Assembly (NCBI RefSeq): GCF_027257155.1
Contig: NZ_JAPWDU010000002.1
Coordinates: forward strand, 1 to 64,000
DNA: 64,000 nt
Origin: Cerasicoccus sp. TK19100
Lineage (GTDB): Bacteria; Verrucomicrobiota; Verrucomicrobiia; Opitutales; Cerasicoccaceae
Reading direction: 5' to 3'
The notes beneath the pieces are model-generated. The model ran no database searches and was not told where the DNA came from. It worked only from the letters and a program-made list of their open reading frames with translations. Shown here in pieces: positions 29,872 to 60,861 of the stretch. Positions within the stretch are counted from its first letter, which is position 1. Each line of letters opens with the position of its first letter. A program made the translations under genes and the position numbers.

Positions 29872-30327
29872 ATGGCGAAAGTCGATGTAGATTTAGTGAA
29901 GATGGTGATGACCCGCACCGGCCTGGATGTGCGCACGGTGGCCCAAGTCATCGAAGAGATTAACCTCGAACTCAAGGCGCAGGCAGACGAAGAGGAGAAG
30001 CCGCCACCCGTGAAAAAGCAGTTCGTGATGATGGTTTCCGACCCGGAAGGCAAACTGGAGGGCGTCGACCTCGTTGGCTGGGTGCTGCAAATCCCCGAAG
30101 AAGACTCTGTATACGTGACCGAAGAGCGCCTGTTCCGCTGCGCCTACGAATACAACATGAGCAAAAAGGGCCGACGCATGCCGGTGAAGACCATCGCTGA
30201 AGTTTGCGAACACGCCCCCGCCCGCATCGCCAAAGAACAGAAAGTTTGGATCAAAAACAAGGAACCCGTCCTCCTCCTGCGCACGAATAACAAAGTGCCG
30301 ATGGAAACGAAGGACGCCGGTTTCTAG
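29872..30327 (+). CDS. Conserved-looking 151-residue protein of unknown function
   Basis: No family recognised. The N-terminal 30 residues (MAKVDVDLVKMVMTRTGLDVRTVAQVIEEIN, cited by its ends MAKVDVD and VIEEIN) look helical; a Glu/Pro/Lys linker follows (about 37-48), then a beta-rich domain with 'QFVMMVSDPEGKLEGVDLVG' and 'VYVTEERLFRCAYEYN', and 'VWIKNKEPVLLLRTNNKVPM' at the end. No signal peptide or membrane helix, so it is cytoplasmic. Coding is supported by codon bias like the neighbours and by a closed frame. It sits between two palindromic repeats. Confidence 0.75.
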   Translation: MAKVDVDLVKMVMTRTGLDVRTVAQVIEEINLELKAQADEEEKPPPVKKQFVMMVSDPEGKLEGVDLVGWVLQIPEEDSVYVTEERLFRCAYEYNMSKKGRRMPVKTIAEVCEHAPARIAKEQKVWIKNKEPVLLLRTNNKVPMETKDAGF

Positions 30328-30452: not shown

Positions 30453-30532
30453 CCATTCGCCGCAGGCTAATGGTTAGCCTTTACCTGTGCGGTTGGCTTG
30501 TTAACGTGGGTAACAAATCAACCCCGTTGCCC

Positions 30533-31420
30533 ATGATCGCTGACTGTCCCCTGACCGAATCCGATATCGAACATTTTCTCGAATACGGCTTTGTTGTCGT
30601 GCCCGAGGCGATCGTGCCGGACGTCTGCGATGCCGCGGTAGAGGAGGCATTCGAGCGCTGTGGCTACGACCGTCGTGATCGGTCCACCTGGGTCGAAAAG
30701 AAGATCCACCTCGGCATCAGCCGCTCAACCGCGATCGCGGAGATAGCCCCCAAAGCCTGGGCGGCTACATGCCAGTTACTCGGTGGCGAAGAGCGGGTGA
30801 AAACGCCCGCGAACTACAACAACGCCTACATTTTAAACCTTGGCGTTGGCGCGGATGAGCCGTTCCGCGCGCCCGGTCCGACTTGTCCAGGCTGGCACAA
30901 AGACGGGGATTTCTTCCGGCACTTCCTCGATTCGCCTGAGCAGGGCTTGCTGACGATTGTCGCCTGGAGTGATGTGAAAAGCCACGGTGGTGCGACCTAC
31001 ATCGCCACGGATTCCGTGAGCGTCGTGGCACGCTATTTAGCGCAACATCCGGAGGGACTTAAGCCGGGCGATATCCCGATGCGGGATCTGATCAGCCAAT
31101 GCTCGCAGTTTGTTGAGGCAACGGCGAACGCGGGCGACGTTTACCTGCTACACCCCTACATGCTGCACTGCCATTCTCAGAATATGCTGGAGGTAGCGCG
31201 GGTCATTATCAACCCACCCGCCATGCTCAAGGAGCCAATGCAATTCAACCGTTCCGATGGCCGCTATTCACCGGTCGAGCAGGCGGTGCTGCGCGGATTG
31301 GGTGTGGACCATTACGACTTCCAGCCAACCGGCCCACGCGAGGAGATTATTCCAGACCGCCGCAAAAAGCAGATGCAAATGCTCGAAGAGGAGATGAGGA
31401 GGAAAAAGGAAAAAGATTAA
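30533..31420 (+). CDS. Phytanoyl-CoA dioxygenase (PhyH) family protein
   Basis: A 295-residue Fe(II)/2-oxoglutarate oxygenase. The facial triad is visible: H122 and D124 in 'CPGWHKDGDFFRHF' and a distal His in 'LLHPYMLHCHSQN', followed by the R of 'EVARVIINPP' for 2-oxoglutarate. Start at the ATG at 30533 (MIADCPLTESDIEHFLEYGF), which fits the family; an upstream ATG at 30470 would add 21 residues. Substrate unknown (often small molecules such as ectoine-like compounds or secondary metabolites). Its C-terminal 'RRKKEKD' is encoded by the left arm of the second palindromic repeat, so the repeat has been taken into the gene. Confidence 0.87.
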   Translation: MIADCPLTESDIEHFLEYGFVVVPEAIVPDVCDAAVEEAFERCGYDRRDRSTWVEKKIHLGISRSTAIAEIAPKAWAATCQLLGGEERVKTPANYNNAYILNLGVGADEPFRAPGPTCPGWHKDGDFFRHFLDSPEQGLLTIVAWSDVKSHGGATYIATDSVSVVARYLAQHPEGLKPGDIPMRDLISQCSQFVEATANAGDVYLLHPYMLHCHSQNMLEVARVIINPPAMLKEPMQFNRSDGRYSPVEQAVLRGLGVDHYDFQPTGPREEIIPDRRKKQMQMLEEEMRRKKEKD

Positions 31421-32533: not shown

Positions 32534-33892
32534 ATGCGACTAGACCGGTATATTTCCAAGTCACGAATCATCGACATCGTTAGCTCGGATTTGGAGGGCG
32601 CGCTCAAAGAATTGCTCGAAGTCTGCAAGCTGCCCGAAGAGGCGGGGATGACCAAAAAGCAACTGCTGGGCGAGCTAATCGAACGCGAGCAAACGATGAC
32701 GACTTACCTCGGTGGCGGCATAGGCTTGCCCCACGTGCGTATTCCGATGAAGCGCCCGTATCAGTTCGCCATTGGTCGGTGCCCGCAAGGTTTGGAGTTC
32801 GAGGGACACGATGAATACCGCGAAATCCGCTTGGTGTTCCTGCTGCTCGCCTCGGAAAAAGAGAAATCTTATCTGAATGTATTGGCGTCGCTGGCGCGAA
32901 CTTTTCAGGAGCCAGGCGTCGTCGAAAAGCTCACCCAGTCCAAGGATGTTGGCGAGCTTCGTGATTCGGTGGCCGCTACCTTTGGTGGCAGCAGCACGAA
33001 GCAGGGCACGAAGGATAACAAGTTTAACCGCCTCATCTTGAAGGAAGCGGTCAAGGTCGCCAAGGGCTCTCAAAGCTCGGCGATCATGGTCTTTGGCGAC
33101 ACCTTCATCGGAGGCGTGGACTTGACGGAATCCTTCGGCGATATGAAGACGATCCTCGTCACGCAGTCAGCCTCAGAGGCAACCTTTGACAGTAAGACCG
33201 TCACGGCAATCATCCCGGCGCGATCGTTCGGGCACAGCCGCTTATCACAATTGCGCAGTGCAATGTTGATCGGTTTGACGCGCGGTATCATCAAGCACAA
33301 CGAACGCTTGTGCTGCGTGGGTGGCCTGCCACACAGCAACCAATTTGACACGCTGGTTGTGGTCGACGTGGAGCGTGAATTCCAATCGGTGCTCACGCGG
33401 CAGACCGATATGCTACCCGCCGCCGTCAAGCCCGAGGTGCTAGAGCGCGTGCTTGCTATCGCCACGGAGCTTTCCATCGAAGGCCGCGAAGGCAAGCCGG
33501 TCGGCTCGCTGTTTGTGCTTGGCGATTCCCAGCAAGTGCGCCCACACACGAAGCAGCTGGTGCTCAATCCGTTCTTCGGCTACGAGGCCGAGGAGCGCAA
33601 CATTCTCAACCCGTTCATGGACGAAACGGTGAAGGAATTTTCCCTGCTCGACGGCGCGTTCATCATTCGTGGGGATGGCGTGCTCGAAGCCGCCGGCACG
33701 CTGATTCACGCCAACGAACTACCTCAGCAACTGCCCAGTGGGCTCGGCACACGGCACGCCGCCGCCGCGTCGATCTCGATGGCCACGGACTGCATTGCGC
33801 TGGTGGTCTCGGCCAGTACCGGCCAGGTGACGCTTTTCCGCCGCGGCCAAATGCTGCCGCTGATTGAGCGCAACTCCAGTCGCGAGCTCTAA
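32534..33892 (+). CDS. PTS EIIA - pyruvate-kinase-C-like - diadenylate cyclase fusion (c-di-AMP synthase)
   Basis: A 452-residue three-domain protein. Residues 1-150: EIIA of the fructose/Ntr type, with the phosphorylatable His H67 in GGGIGLPHVRIP. Residues about 160-320: alpha/beta region ('AIMVFGDTF', 'ILVTQSASEATF', 'TLVVVDVEREF') resembling the pyruvate-kinase C-terminal-like domain of some archaeal DacZ cyclases. Residues about 323-440: DisA_N cyclase domain, with DGA at 373-375, GTRHA at 405-409 and VVSASTG at 424-430. The classical RHR motif is RHA here. No membrane helix. The domain calls come from motif recognition; phosphorylation-controlled c-di-AMP synthesis is inference. No neighbouring PTS sugar gene. 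Confidence 0.85.
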   Translation: MRLDRYISKSRIIDIVSSDLEGALKELLEVCKLPEEAGMTKKQLLGELIEREQTMTTYLGGGIGLPHVRIPMKRPYQFAIGRCPQGLEFEGHDEYREIRLVFLLLASEKEKSYLNVLASLARTFQEPGVVEKLTQSKDVGELRDSVAATFGGSSTKQGTKDNKFNRLILKEAVKVAKGSQSSAIMVFGDTFIGGVDLTESFGDMKTILVTQSASEATFDSKTVTAIIPARSFGHSRLSQLRSAMLIGLTRGIIKHNERLCCVGGLPHSNQFDTLVVVDVEREFQSVLTRQTDMLPAAVKPEVLERVLAIATELSIEGREGKPVGSLFVLGDSQQVRPHTKQLVLNPFFGYEAEERNILNPFMDETVKEFSLLDGAFIIRGDGVLEAAGTLIHANELPQQLPSGLGTRHAAAASISMATDCIALVVSASTGQVTLFRRGQMLPLIERNSSREL

Positions 33893-34004: not shown

Positions 34005-35396
34005 ATGGATCATTCAAAAGCCTGGCGTCCAATGCGGCGCTTGAGCCTGCTAATCACGCTGGCAGCCAGCCCGGCGTTTGCCGCCTACACGCAGTATTCG
34101 GCGACCGCTGAGGAACGTCATGACGAGATGATGGCCTTCTTCACCGACCACACCGAGGCGACCGTTCCGGACTCCGTGCAAAGTTGGTGGGACTATAAAT
34201 ACATGCTCGGCGACGGCTATTACCGCGACGATTTGGCCAAGGAGGGCCTGACGCTGTCGCTGAAATTCGTCACCGACAGCCTGGGCAACGTGAGCGGTGG
34301 CCGCGACCAGGGCTTTACTTATACGGGCTCAATGGGCTTCGACGCCGACGCGGATCTGGAGAAATTACTCGGCATCGAGGGTGCGGATTTTTACGTTTCA
34401 GCGGTCTGGCGCTCGGGCACGAGCTTGTCTAATAAATACATCGGCAATGTCTTCCAGACTCAGCAGATTTATGGTGGGCAAAACCTGCGGCTCTATGCGT
34501 TTTACTGGCGGCAAAGTCTATTCGACGACCAACTGCTGCTCAAGGTTGGCCGCATCGCGCAGGGTGACGATTTCCTTTCCCGGCCGATCTATTGGAGCTA
34601 CGTGCAAAACGCTTTCGACGGCAACCCGGTGTCGATTTTCCTGAACACGCCGATGTATGCCTACCCGAATTCCACTTGGGGCGGTTTCGCTAAATACACG
34701 CCCAAAGAATCGGATTTTTTCGTGCAAGGCGGCCTCTATGGCGGCGCGAAAACCCCCACGCAGACTCGCAATAGCGCGCATGGTCTCGACTGGTCATTCG
34801 ACTACGATAACGCCTACCTGATGGGTATGTTCGGTTGGCGGCCAGGGATGAAAATCAGCGGGCAAAGTGAGCTGCCGGGGAATTATTCGATGGGTGCGTA
34901 TTACGTGACCGGCCACTTCCAGCAATTCCTGCCAGCGCCGGCACCACCAGGCACGAGCGCCGAGGTGGAGGGCAAGTGGGGCTTGTATTGGATGTTTGAC
35001 CAGATGGTCTATTCCAACGGCGTCAATTCGAATGGTGATAAGACCGGCATTACCCCGTGGTTTGTGGTCAGTATCGCGCCGGACGAGCGGGTGAATCAGA
35101 TGCCATATTCGTTCTACGGCGGCGTGCGCTGGGATGCGATTCTGCCTTCACGTAAAGACGACTTTCTCGCGCTGGGCTATGTTTACGGCATGTTTAGCGA
35201 CGACTTCGCCCAATCGCAGCGCAATCGCGGCATTCCGGGGCAGAATTTCGAGTCCGTCATCGAGCTCACCTACATGATCCAGGTCAACGAGTGGTTCACC
35301 TTCCAGCCCGACCTGCAATACATCATCAATCCGGGCGGCGCGCACCAATATAGCGATGCCTTCGTGTTGGGCTTCCAGTCATCGGTGCAGTTTTAA
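34005..35396 (+). CDS. OprB-family carbohydrate-selective porin
   Basis: A 463-residue outer-membrane barrel. A signal peptide ends near 'AASPAFA' (residue about 26); an internal ATG at 34032 would give the shorter leader MRRLSLLITLAASPAFA and is equally plausible. The mature protein is full of alternating aromatic strands and OprB-type phrases ('GSMGFDADADLEKLLGIEGA', 'LLLKVGRIAQGDDFL', 'QGGLYGGAKTP'), ends with a terminal Phe (SSVQF) as barrels do, and has no membrane helices. Function: passive uptake of sugars. Single gene with a 112-base gap from the EIIA-cyclase gene. Confidence 0.9.
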   Translation: MDHSKAWRPMRRLSLLITLAASPAFAAYTQYSATAEERHDEMMAFFTDHTEATVPDSVQSWWDYKYMLGDGYYRDDLAKEGLTLSLKFVTDSLGNVSGGRDQGFTYTGSMGFDADADLEKLLGIEGADFYVSAVWRSGTSLSNKYIGNVFQTQQIYGGQNLRLYAFYWRQSLFDDQLLLKVGRIAQGDDFLSRPIYWSYVQNAFDGNPVSIFLNTPMYAYPNSTWGGFAKYTPKESDFFVQGGLYGGAKTPTQTRNSAHGLDWSFDYDNAYLMGMFGWRPGMKISGQSELPGNYSMGAYYVTGHFQQFLPAPAPPGTSAEVEGKWGLYWMFDQMVYSNGVNSNGDKTGITPWFVVSIAPDERVNQMPYSFYGGVRWDAILPSRKDDFLALGYVYGMFSDDFAQSQRNRGIPGQNFESVIELTYMIQVNEWFTFQPDLQYIINPGGAHQYSDAFVLGFQSSVQF

Positions 35397-36203: not shown

Positions 36204-36578
36204 ATGGAATTGGCTGACTACCTGCCCGTATTGATTCAGATTTTGCTCGCTGTGGTGATTGCTGCGGCGATCCTGACGGCGAGTCACATCTTTGGCCAGC
36301 GCGCGCGCGGCAACTACGCGAAGGACGCCGCCTACGAGTGCGGTATGCTGGAGGAAAGTAAGCCACACCCGAAGTTTAGCGTGAAATTCTATGTCGTCGC
36401 GATGCTGTTCATCCTGTTCGACATCGAGATGGTCTTCATGATTCCGTGGGTGCTCGTTTACCGTGAGCTACTCGCTGTGGGTGTGCTTGATTTCTGGCCG
36501 ATTCTGTTCTTCCTCTTCATTCTGACCCTTGGCTTGGTCTATGAAATGAAGAAGAAGGGCCTTGAGTGGGAGCGCTAA
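36204..36578 (+). CDS. nuoA: NADH-quinone oxidoreductase subunit A (isolated)
   Basis: A 124-residue, three-helix subunit of complex I. 'YECGMLEESKPHPKFSVKFY' and 'MLFILFDIEMVFMIPW' are the invariant NuoA motifs, with helices at about 6-28, 60-82 and 90-112. No nuoB or other nuo gene follows; the next gene on this strand is far away and the protease converges with a 4-base overlap at the stop. It is an orphan nuoA, or the rest of the operon is elsewhere. Confidence 0.94.
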   Translation: MELADYLPVLIQILLAVVIAAAILTASHIFGQRARGNYAKDAAYECGMLEESKPHPKFSVKFYVVAMLFILFDIEMVFMIPWVLVYRELLAVGVLDFWPILFFLFILTLGLVYEMKKKGLEWER

Positions 36579-59088: not shown

Positions 59089-60861
59089 ATGGATTCCGAT
59101 AAGCCTAAAGAGATCATCCTGGACGGCATCGCAGCTTCTCCTGGAGTTGCGCATGGATTGGCTTTCGTTATCTTGCAGAAGGAGTTAGAGATTCCGGTTT
59201 ACGAGATTCCTACCAAACAGCTGGAGCACGAGAAGGAGCGTTTTGAAAAAGCGCTGCTGGAGGCCCGCCGCCAGATTGCAGAAATCCGCCACGAGATTGC
59301 CGGGCGTTTGGGGGAGAACGAAGCGCGCATTTTTGACGCACATATCATGGTCCTTGAGGACCGCGCTTTGATCGAGGAAACGCTTCGGGAAATGGAGGAC
59401 ACCGGCTACAACGTCGAGTATTGTTTCCGCGAGGTGAGTAACCGATTCATTGAAGCCTTTGAGGCCCTGCAGGATGATTACCTGAAGGAGCGCGTTAAGG
59501 ACATCGAGGACGTCTCCCGCCGTGTTTTGCAGATCCTGCTTGGGCAGACTCAGCGCAACCTGATGGAGTTGGTCAACGAGCGCATTATCGTCTCCGAGGA
59601 CATCACACCGTCGGAGGCCGCGAGTTTTGATAAAAAGAGAATTTTAGGCGTTGTGACGGACTCCGGCAGCCGCACCAGCCACGCCGTCATCATGGCGCGT
59701 TCACTGGGCGTCCCGGCTGTCGTTGGTTTGCACAATGCCTCAGAACAGCTTGATAATGAGGACTATATCCTGATCGATGGTTATGATGGCATTGTCATCA
59801 TCAACCCCTCGGAGGAGACCCTGTTCCGCTACGGTGAGCTGAAAAGCGAACGCCAGAATATTCAGCGTGTCTTTGAGAGTTCGGCGCTTTTGCCGGCGAC
59901 CACGGCCGATGGGCATCGCCTTGAGATCGGTGCCAATATCGGCGGTCCGGAAGACTGTGAATCCGCCCTGGAGCGAGGCGCAGAAGGTGTGGGGCTTTAC
60001 CGCACGGAGGCGCTGTTTATGCAGCAGGACGCCTTTCCGGACGAGGAAGACCAGTATCAGGCTTACCGGGAGGTGGCGGAGGCCTTGTCCCCGCATCCGG
60101 TGATTTTACGAACGCTGGACTTAGGCGGCGATAAGCACCTGTCCGACTATTTTGTCCAGAACGAGAACAATCCATTTATGGGCTTCCGGGCGATTCGTTT
60201 CTGCCTGGAGCATCGGGATTTGTTTAAGGACCAGCTCCGCGCAATCCTTCGCGCCAGTGCCGTCGGCAACGTGAAGATCATGTATCCGATGATCAGCTCG
60301 GCCGAAGAATTGATTGCCGCCAATCTGCTGCTCGAAGAGGCAAAAAAGGAGTGCCGCGAGCGCGGACAGAAGTTTGATAAGGACATCCAAGTCGGCGCGA
60401 TGATCGAGATACCTGGTGCCGCCTATACCTGCGATCTGCTGGCCGAGCATTGTGATTTTTTCAGTATCGGGACCAATGATTTGATCCAATACCTTCTCGC
60501 GGTGGATCGCGTAAATGATCGCATTGCCCACCTCTATGAGCCGAATCATCCGGCGGTCATCCGTACGTTAAAAGTGATCATCGAAACAGCCAACAAGCAC
60601 AATGTCCATGTGGGTGTCTGTGGGGAAATGGCAGGCGATCCAATCTACGTGCCGCTGCTGTTCGGATTGGGTGCCGATGAGATCAGCGCGACTGGAACGG
60701 TTTTGCCGGAAATAAAATATTTAATCCGCAAAATGAAGCTGTCGGAGGCGAAGGATCTTGCAAAACGCATTCTCCGCGAATCGGACCCTCATGCAATTCG
60801 CAATCAGTTGACTAAGTTCTACGAGACGCAAATGCGCGACGTTTTGGAGCAAATCGACTAA
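59089..60861 (+). CDS. ptsI: Phosphoenolpyruvate-protein phosphotransferase (PTS enzyme I)
   Basis: A 590-residue cytoplasmic EI that transfers phosphate from PEP to HPr. N-terminal phosphohistidine domain with H198 in 'DSGSRTSHAVIMARSLGVP'; PEP-binding C-terminal barrel with 'GVGLYRTEALFMQ', 'RTLDLGGDKHL', 'ANPFMGFRAIRFCLEHR'-type residues, 'GAMIEIPGAAYTCDLLAEH' and the active Cys in 'GVCGEMAGDP'. No GAF domain, so it is the carbohydrate-PTS type rather than EI-Ntr. No HPr gene is next to it. A likely phosphate source for the EIIA domain of the diadenylate cyclase fusion. Confidence 0.95.
   Translation: MDSDKPKEIILDGIAASPGVAHGLAFVILQKELEIPVYEIPTKQLEHEKERFEKALLEARRQIAEIRHEIAGRLGENEARIFDAHIMVLEDRALIEETLREMEDTGYNVEYCFREVSNRFIEAFEALQDDYLKERVKDIEDVSRRVLQILLGQTQRNLMELVNERIIVSEDITPSEAASFDKKRILGVVTDSGSRTSHAVIMARSLGVPAVVGLHNASEQLDNEDYILIDGYDGIVIINPSEETLFRYGELKSERQNIQRVFESSALLPATTADGHRLEIGANIGGPEDCESALERGAEGVGLYRTEALFMQQDAFPDEEDQYQAYREVAEALSPHPVILRTLDLGGDKHLSDYFVQNENNPFMGFRAIRFCLEHRDLFKDQLRAILRASAVGNVKIMYPMISSAEELIAANLLLEEAKKECRERGQKFDKDIQVGAMIEIPGAAYTCDLLAEHCDFFSIGTNDLIQYLLAVDRVNDRIAHLYEPNHPAVIRTLKVIIETANKHNVHVGVCGEMAGDPIYVPLLFGLGADEISATGTVLPEIKYLIRKMKLSEAKDLAKRILRESDPHAIRNQLTKFYETQMRDVLEQID

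Follow-up and report, generated by a model that had tools for sequence, protein, structure and literature searches.

For most classes of diadenylate cyclase, how c-di-AMP synthesis is controlled is largely an open question. A 64,000-nucleotide stretch of the Cerasicoccus sp. TK19100 genome (contig NZ_JAPWDU010000002.1, positions 1 to 64,000; hereafter the window) raises it in a specific form, since one of its genes joins an EIIA domain of the PTS to a diadenylate cyclase (DAC) domain. The original prediction for this locus was that EIIA phosphorylation, driven by the ptsI product of the same window, may switch c-di-AMP synthesis in response to carbon or nitrogen supply. Here we ask what the fusion protein is, whether its cyclase site is intact, and what its EIIA domain may report.

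Domain organization of the fusion protein

The gene and the features of its product are as follows.

32534..33892, plus strand: EIIA-DacZ_P-DAC fusion gene, predicted diadenylate cyclase, very likely of the 'DacD' type, 452 aa (ORF, Pfam, family alignment)
32534..32983, plus strand: EIIA domain (PTS_EIIA_2, fructose/Ntr class), residues 1-150 (Pfam, fold match 1a6j)
32732..32734, plus strand: codon of His67, the predicted phospho-acceptor (alignment with PtsN)
33020..33385, plus strand: DacZ_P domain (PK_C-like by profile), residues 163-284 (Pfam; family-profile match to the pyruvate kinase C-terminal region)
33473..33850, plus strand: DAC domain, residues 314-439 (Pfam; CdaA-AMP model match)
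33650..33658, plus strand: DGA motif, residues 373-375 (D373 and G374 invariant)
33746..33760, plus strand: GTRHA motif, residues 405-409, counterpart of the CdaA GTRHR (G405, R407 and H408 invariant; 409 variable)

Profile searches and an AlphaFold2 model agree on this organization, which confirms the 452-residue fusion and bears out the predicted reading frame with its EIIA and DisA_N-type domains. The start methionine (M1) is invariant in the family alignment, and all three Pfam matches exceed their curated cut-offs: PTS_EIIA_2 at residues 21-143 (E 3e-20, 73 bits against a cut-off of 27), DacZ_P at residues 163-284 (E 7e-16, 58.6 bits against 27.4) and DAC (PF02457) at residues 314-439 (E 2e-21, 76.4 bits against 27). 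In the model, which was built from 35 relatives and has a mean pLDDT of 82.9, residues 1-153 resemble EIIA-Ntr (1a6j; Z 18.0, rmsd 2.4 over 144 residues) and residues 296-444 resemble CdaA-AMP (8c4n; Z 16.9, rmsd 2.5 over 130). The linker at residues 152-161 has a pLDDT below 50, and the placement of EIIA on the rest of the protein is therefore not fixed by the model. H67 aligns with the active-site histidine in the IPHGR motif of PtsN (PDB 4gqx/3urr) and lies in the (I/L)PH motif of PF00359; like DGA (373-375), GTRHA (405-409) and VVSASTG (424-430), it was recovered at the residue given in the original prediction.

The middle domain is PK_C-like as judged from sequence profiles, on which the fold assignment rests, with residues about 155-295 being poorly covered in the VIA-align structure comparison. 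The family profile matches the pyruvate kinase C-terminal region of PDB 3eoe (E 0.003), and a weak match to PK_C, under the cut-off at E 0.002, was obtained with the DacZ_P domain of a close relative, in agreement with the pyruvate-kinase-C-like domain first proposed. PK_C-related DacZ domains are reportedly described in a 2023 review of DAC architectures by Galperin. As in the DacZ superfamily, the PK_C-like DacZ domain directly precedes DAC. The best NCBIfam match is the haloarchaeal DacZ equivalog NF041371 (E 1.5e-32), at 113 bits against a cut-off of 430, and by this score the fusion protein is a relative of that DacZ and not an equivalog.

Conservation of the cyclase site

The DAC domain combines the CdaA-like fold with DGA and (G)xRH motifs, and position 409, which is Arg in CdaA, is Ala, giving RHA in place of RHR. 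The original prediction had taken this as a sign that the cyclase may be altered, and it is conceivable that the protein is an altered or inactive cyclase that serves in another role. We consider this very improbable. Of the 80 named relatives, 74 have Ala at position 409 and 6 have Ser, and elsewhere in the branch the residue is Thr, Arg, Gly, Val, Met, Asn or Leu; because it varies so widely, the second Arg of RHR was not treated as defining for DacZ relatives. D373, G374, G405, R407, H408, S426 and S428, in contrast, are invariant in the 35-row family alignment, and on the strength of the invariant catalytic residues D373, G374, R407 and H408 an alteration due to RHA was rejected. All three domains of the fusion are under purifying selection (dN/dS about 0.02 to 0.17 wherever dS was estimable), and the fusion is the only DAC protein in most genomes of the order. 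This cyclase shows no sign of decay, and it is predicted to be active.

A second DAC protein is encoded in the same genome outside the window (L113:7710-9455, minus strand; contig C2 near 147 kb). It has 581 aa with the organization DACNG-DACNH-DAC and a GARYN motif replacing GxRH, and the start of an adjoining ORF of 416 aa resembles, by eye, a DUF3800 protein.

Distribution and classification

Conservation within Verrucomicrobiota was surveyed in a phylum sample of 388 genomes and an order sample of 66 Opitutales genomes. Full-length relatives occur in nearly all genomes of the same order in the phylum sample, and the fusion family profile matches 62 of the 66 genomes in the order sample, most of which have a single DAC gene; the named relatives are Opitutales, Opitutaceae and Puniceicoccaceae. 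Other classes contribute few full-length members, which are 32-35% identical (G319, G004, G248, G384, G035 and G160). One locus (L039:4968-7424, minus strand) encodes an 818-aa DacZ_P-DAC protein with an N-terminal stretch of about 500 residues that has no Pfam match and may in part be a gene-start artefact. One genome of the order (G102, L111) has no DAC match and has retained EI and HPr together with a single free-standing EIIA that bears a PH motif.

DacD is one of the classes in the scheme of Corrigan & Gruendling (2013), adopted in PMC6741144, where the representatives given with Figure A1 are Lacunisphaera, Coraliomargarita and other Opitutae/Verrucomicrobia. Because these are Opitutae, the group in which the fusion is usually the sole DAC protein, the fusion family is very likely this catalogued class, an assignment that follows from the representatives listed there and not from the class definition. 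The EIIA-DacZ_P-DAC architecture, that of the near-universal and usually single cyclase of Opitutales, is as such not new: it is already catalogued, and Pfam has DacZ_P, so that the high novelty implied at the outset does not hold. What is new concerns the partners of the EIIA domain: in most Opitutales the fusion appears to be the principal EIIA output left to a PTS that has no recognised permease.

PTS components in this genome and across Opitutales

The ptsI gene expected in the window is present.

59089..60861, plus strand: Enzyme I (EI; ptsI), no GAF domain (Pfam PEP-utilisers_N, PEP-utilizers, PEP-utilizers_C)

This EI presumably heads the relay as its phosphoryl donor. HPr, with a HARPA site, is encoded on another contig (L114), and the genome also encodes HprK. 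The single PTS_EIIA_2 match in the genome is the fusion itself, and profile searches of the genome gave no match to PTS_EIIC (PF02378), EIIA-man or EIIA-Glc. The order sample is similar: among 66 genomes, EI was found in 53, HPr in 57 and HprK in 55, PTS_EIIC in 5 and EIIA-man in 1, and no genome had an EIIA-Glc match above the cut-off. EI, HPr and a His67-bearing fusion occur together in 39 genomes, and in 28 of these, including that of Cerasicoccus sp. TK19100, the fusion is the sole EIIA_2. None of the 28 has PTS_EIIC or EIIA-Glc and one (G423) has an EIIA-man match, 'only output' being understood here among the families searched, namely PTS_EIIA_2, EIIA-man, EIIA-Glc and PTS_EIIC (PF02378). 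A relay of this kind has a precedent in Brucella, where an incomplete regulatory PTS, with HprK, is a working phosphorelay (PMC2937029). It is plausible, albeit with somewhat less than even confidence, that in most Opitutales the PTS has turned from sugar import to a line given over to signalling, with the cyclase as its sole recognisable EIIA output and c-di-AMP reporting PEP-driven phosphorylation.

The window EI contains only the three PEP-utiliser domains and no N-terminal GAF domain, which in PtsP is the glutamine/2-oxoglutarate sensor (PMC13104625). A nitrogen-PTS reading was rejected on this ground, and nitrogen supply, one of the two inputs originally suggested, is not indicated; since EI lacks GAF, carbon or energy status would be the more likely input.

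Loss of EIIA and His67 in relation to EI and HPr

Of the 47 EI-containing genomes with the fusion, 41 retain His67, which is also present in at least 78 of the 80 named relatives (the other two were not parsed). The EIIA domain has been deleted, with DacZ_P-DAC kept, in four genomes of two lineages (G403, G415 and G425 from one family, G416 from another); all four are without EI and HPr, and deletion was seen only in such genomes. His67 is replaced in the EI-negative genomes G428 and G411, and also in two clades in which EI and HPr are present, by Tyr in G367, G408, G418 and G429 and by Ser in G149 and G176. Another EIIA domain with a PH motif occurs in four of these six EI-containing genomes, and no other EIIA_2 was found in G408 and G429. 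G391 and G407 have neither EI nor HPr, yet keep EIIA and His67. A strict rule, by which loss of His67 would coincide exactly with loss of EI, was therefore rejected, there being exceptions both ways.

His67 or EIIA is lost in five of the seven genomes without EI and HPr versus seven of the 52 others (Fisher p 0.003, relatedness ignored), and the corresponding test against EI absence gave p 0.010 (Fisher, relatedness ignored). A tree-aware irreversible-loss model, run with several rootings, gave p 0.015 for EIIA deletion and p 0.04-0.06 for any loss. With this modest statistical support (p 0.015 to 0.06), the tracking of EI/HPr loss by EIIA loss is suggestive and not proof, because the tree was derived from the fusion protein, many of the genomes are draft MAGs and deletion occurred only about twice; the losses also fall in reduced genomes, where loss is common.

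The two EI-containing clades that lost His67 and kept EIIA, together with G391 and G407, count against control through His67 and suit a domain that regulates the cyclase independently of phosphorylation, in a docking or structural capacity, by binding, for example, a K+ transporter subunit or another partner. Unphosphorylated PtsN would be the model, since in E. coli PtsN acts via protein contacts with TrkA, YcgO and KdpD (PMC13104625). Given that most EI-containing genomes and nearly all named relatives retain His67, and that EIIA deletion is confined to EI-negative genomes, we regard this role as unlikely, although it deserves serious weight. The EIIA-less DacZ_P-DAC proteins of the same order bear on a further possibility, in which the DAC and PK_C-like domains alone sense a metabolite and EIIA, as a phosphoryl store or reporter, exerts no control over the cyclase, or the signal runs in reverse or in parallel. 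The PK_C-like domains of DacZ are indeed predicted ligand sensors (Pfam DacZ_P description; PMC6741144), but the fusion is retained almost throughout the order and also in divergent members from other classes of the phylum, which makes this arrangement improbable. Because the EIIA-less relatives keep an intact DAC domain and its motifs, EIIA is probably a modulator that is dispensable for catalysis.

Gene neighborhood and candidate c-di-AMP targets

Two annotated genes lie downstream of the cyclase gene.

34005..35396, plus strand: OprB-type carbohydrate porin gene (Pfam PF04966, E 2e-70)
36204..36578, plus strand: nuoA (Pfam Oxidored_q4)

The porin gene starts 112 bp downstream of the cyclase gene on the same strand, and whether the two belong to the same unit is uncertain. 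The recurrent neighbor across loci is nuoA, which immediately precedes the cyclase gene in 46 of 75 named loci (L121-L200) and 17 of 44 others; in the window it lies downstream, past the porin gene and a thymidylate-kinase-like ORF. Two nearby ORFs (30470-31420 and 29872-30327) have no Pfam match at E 0.001. No potassium transporter is encoded among the genes adjoining the cyclase gene, and no conserved potassium-gene neighborhood was seen among the neighbor clusters. The c-di-AMP riboswitch (RF00379) was rejected as a target, with no match in this genome and one among the 66 genomes of the order, weak matches being lost under stricter filters. That sole match is in a 50%-complete genome (G399, L120) with no DAC match, where contamination is possible.

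Proposed mechanism and comparison with known systems

On balance we favor, with a little better than even confidence, control of the cyclase through phosphorylation: PEP, EI and HPr would phosphorylate His67, and the phosphorylation state would tune c-di-AMP synthesis. The protein would belong to the DacZ branch, as a soluble diadenylate cyclase with an N-terminal EIIA phosphorelay domain, to which phosphoryl groups would pass from PEP through EI and HPr. With no EIIB/EIIC drain for the phosphate seen among the PTS families searched, the degree of phosphorylation would track the PEP:pyruvate ratio and the amount of HPr available, a supply that HprK can lower by phosphorylating HPr on serine. 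Phosphorylation could then reposition EIIA with respect to the PK_C-like and DAC domains, driving c-di-AMP output up or down. Carbon/energy status would be the expected input. The switch originally proposed gains support from the sole-EIIA_2 pattern (28 of 39 genomes), the lack of PTS_EIIC in those genomes and the restriction of EIIA deletion to genomes without EI and HPr; phosphotransfer, its coupling to the cyclase and the sign of that coupling are the steps that we infer. If correct, the mechanism would tie c-di-AMP, best known for its role in potassium and osmotic control, to one specific input: the PEP-driven phosphorylation of a single histidine. Since E. coli EIIA-Ntr controls potassium uptake via protein contacts (PMC13104625), the fusion may bring together two established pathways of ion homeostasis.

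Among known cyclases, the representatives given for DacD come from the Opitutae/Verrucomicrobia, the group of the fusion itself. With the DacZ/CdaZ superfamily of archaeal and bacterial PK_C-DAC cyclases, which includes the c-di-AMP-producing DacZ of H. volcanii (PMC6741144), the fusion shares DacZ_P and DAC; it differs in its additional N-terminal EIIA and in a middle domain that is DacZ_P and not of the haloarchaeal type. CdaA (DacA) of Listeria and Bacillus has the DAC fold and the DGA and GTRH motifs in common with the fusion, which in contrast lacks a transmembrane part, carries other regulatory domains and has RHA for RHR. On the PTS side, the incomplete system of Brucella likewise relays without a permease, with HprK present there and here (PMC2937029), whereas an EI without GAF sets the system apart from the PtsP type. 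The fusion shares with PtsN/EIIA-Ntr the fructose/Ntr-class EIIA fold and its histidine motif; unlike in the PtsN systems of E. coli (PMC13104625), the EIIA is here fused to the synthase of a second messenger.
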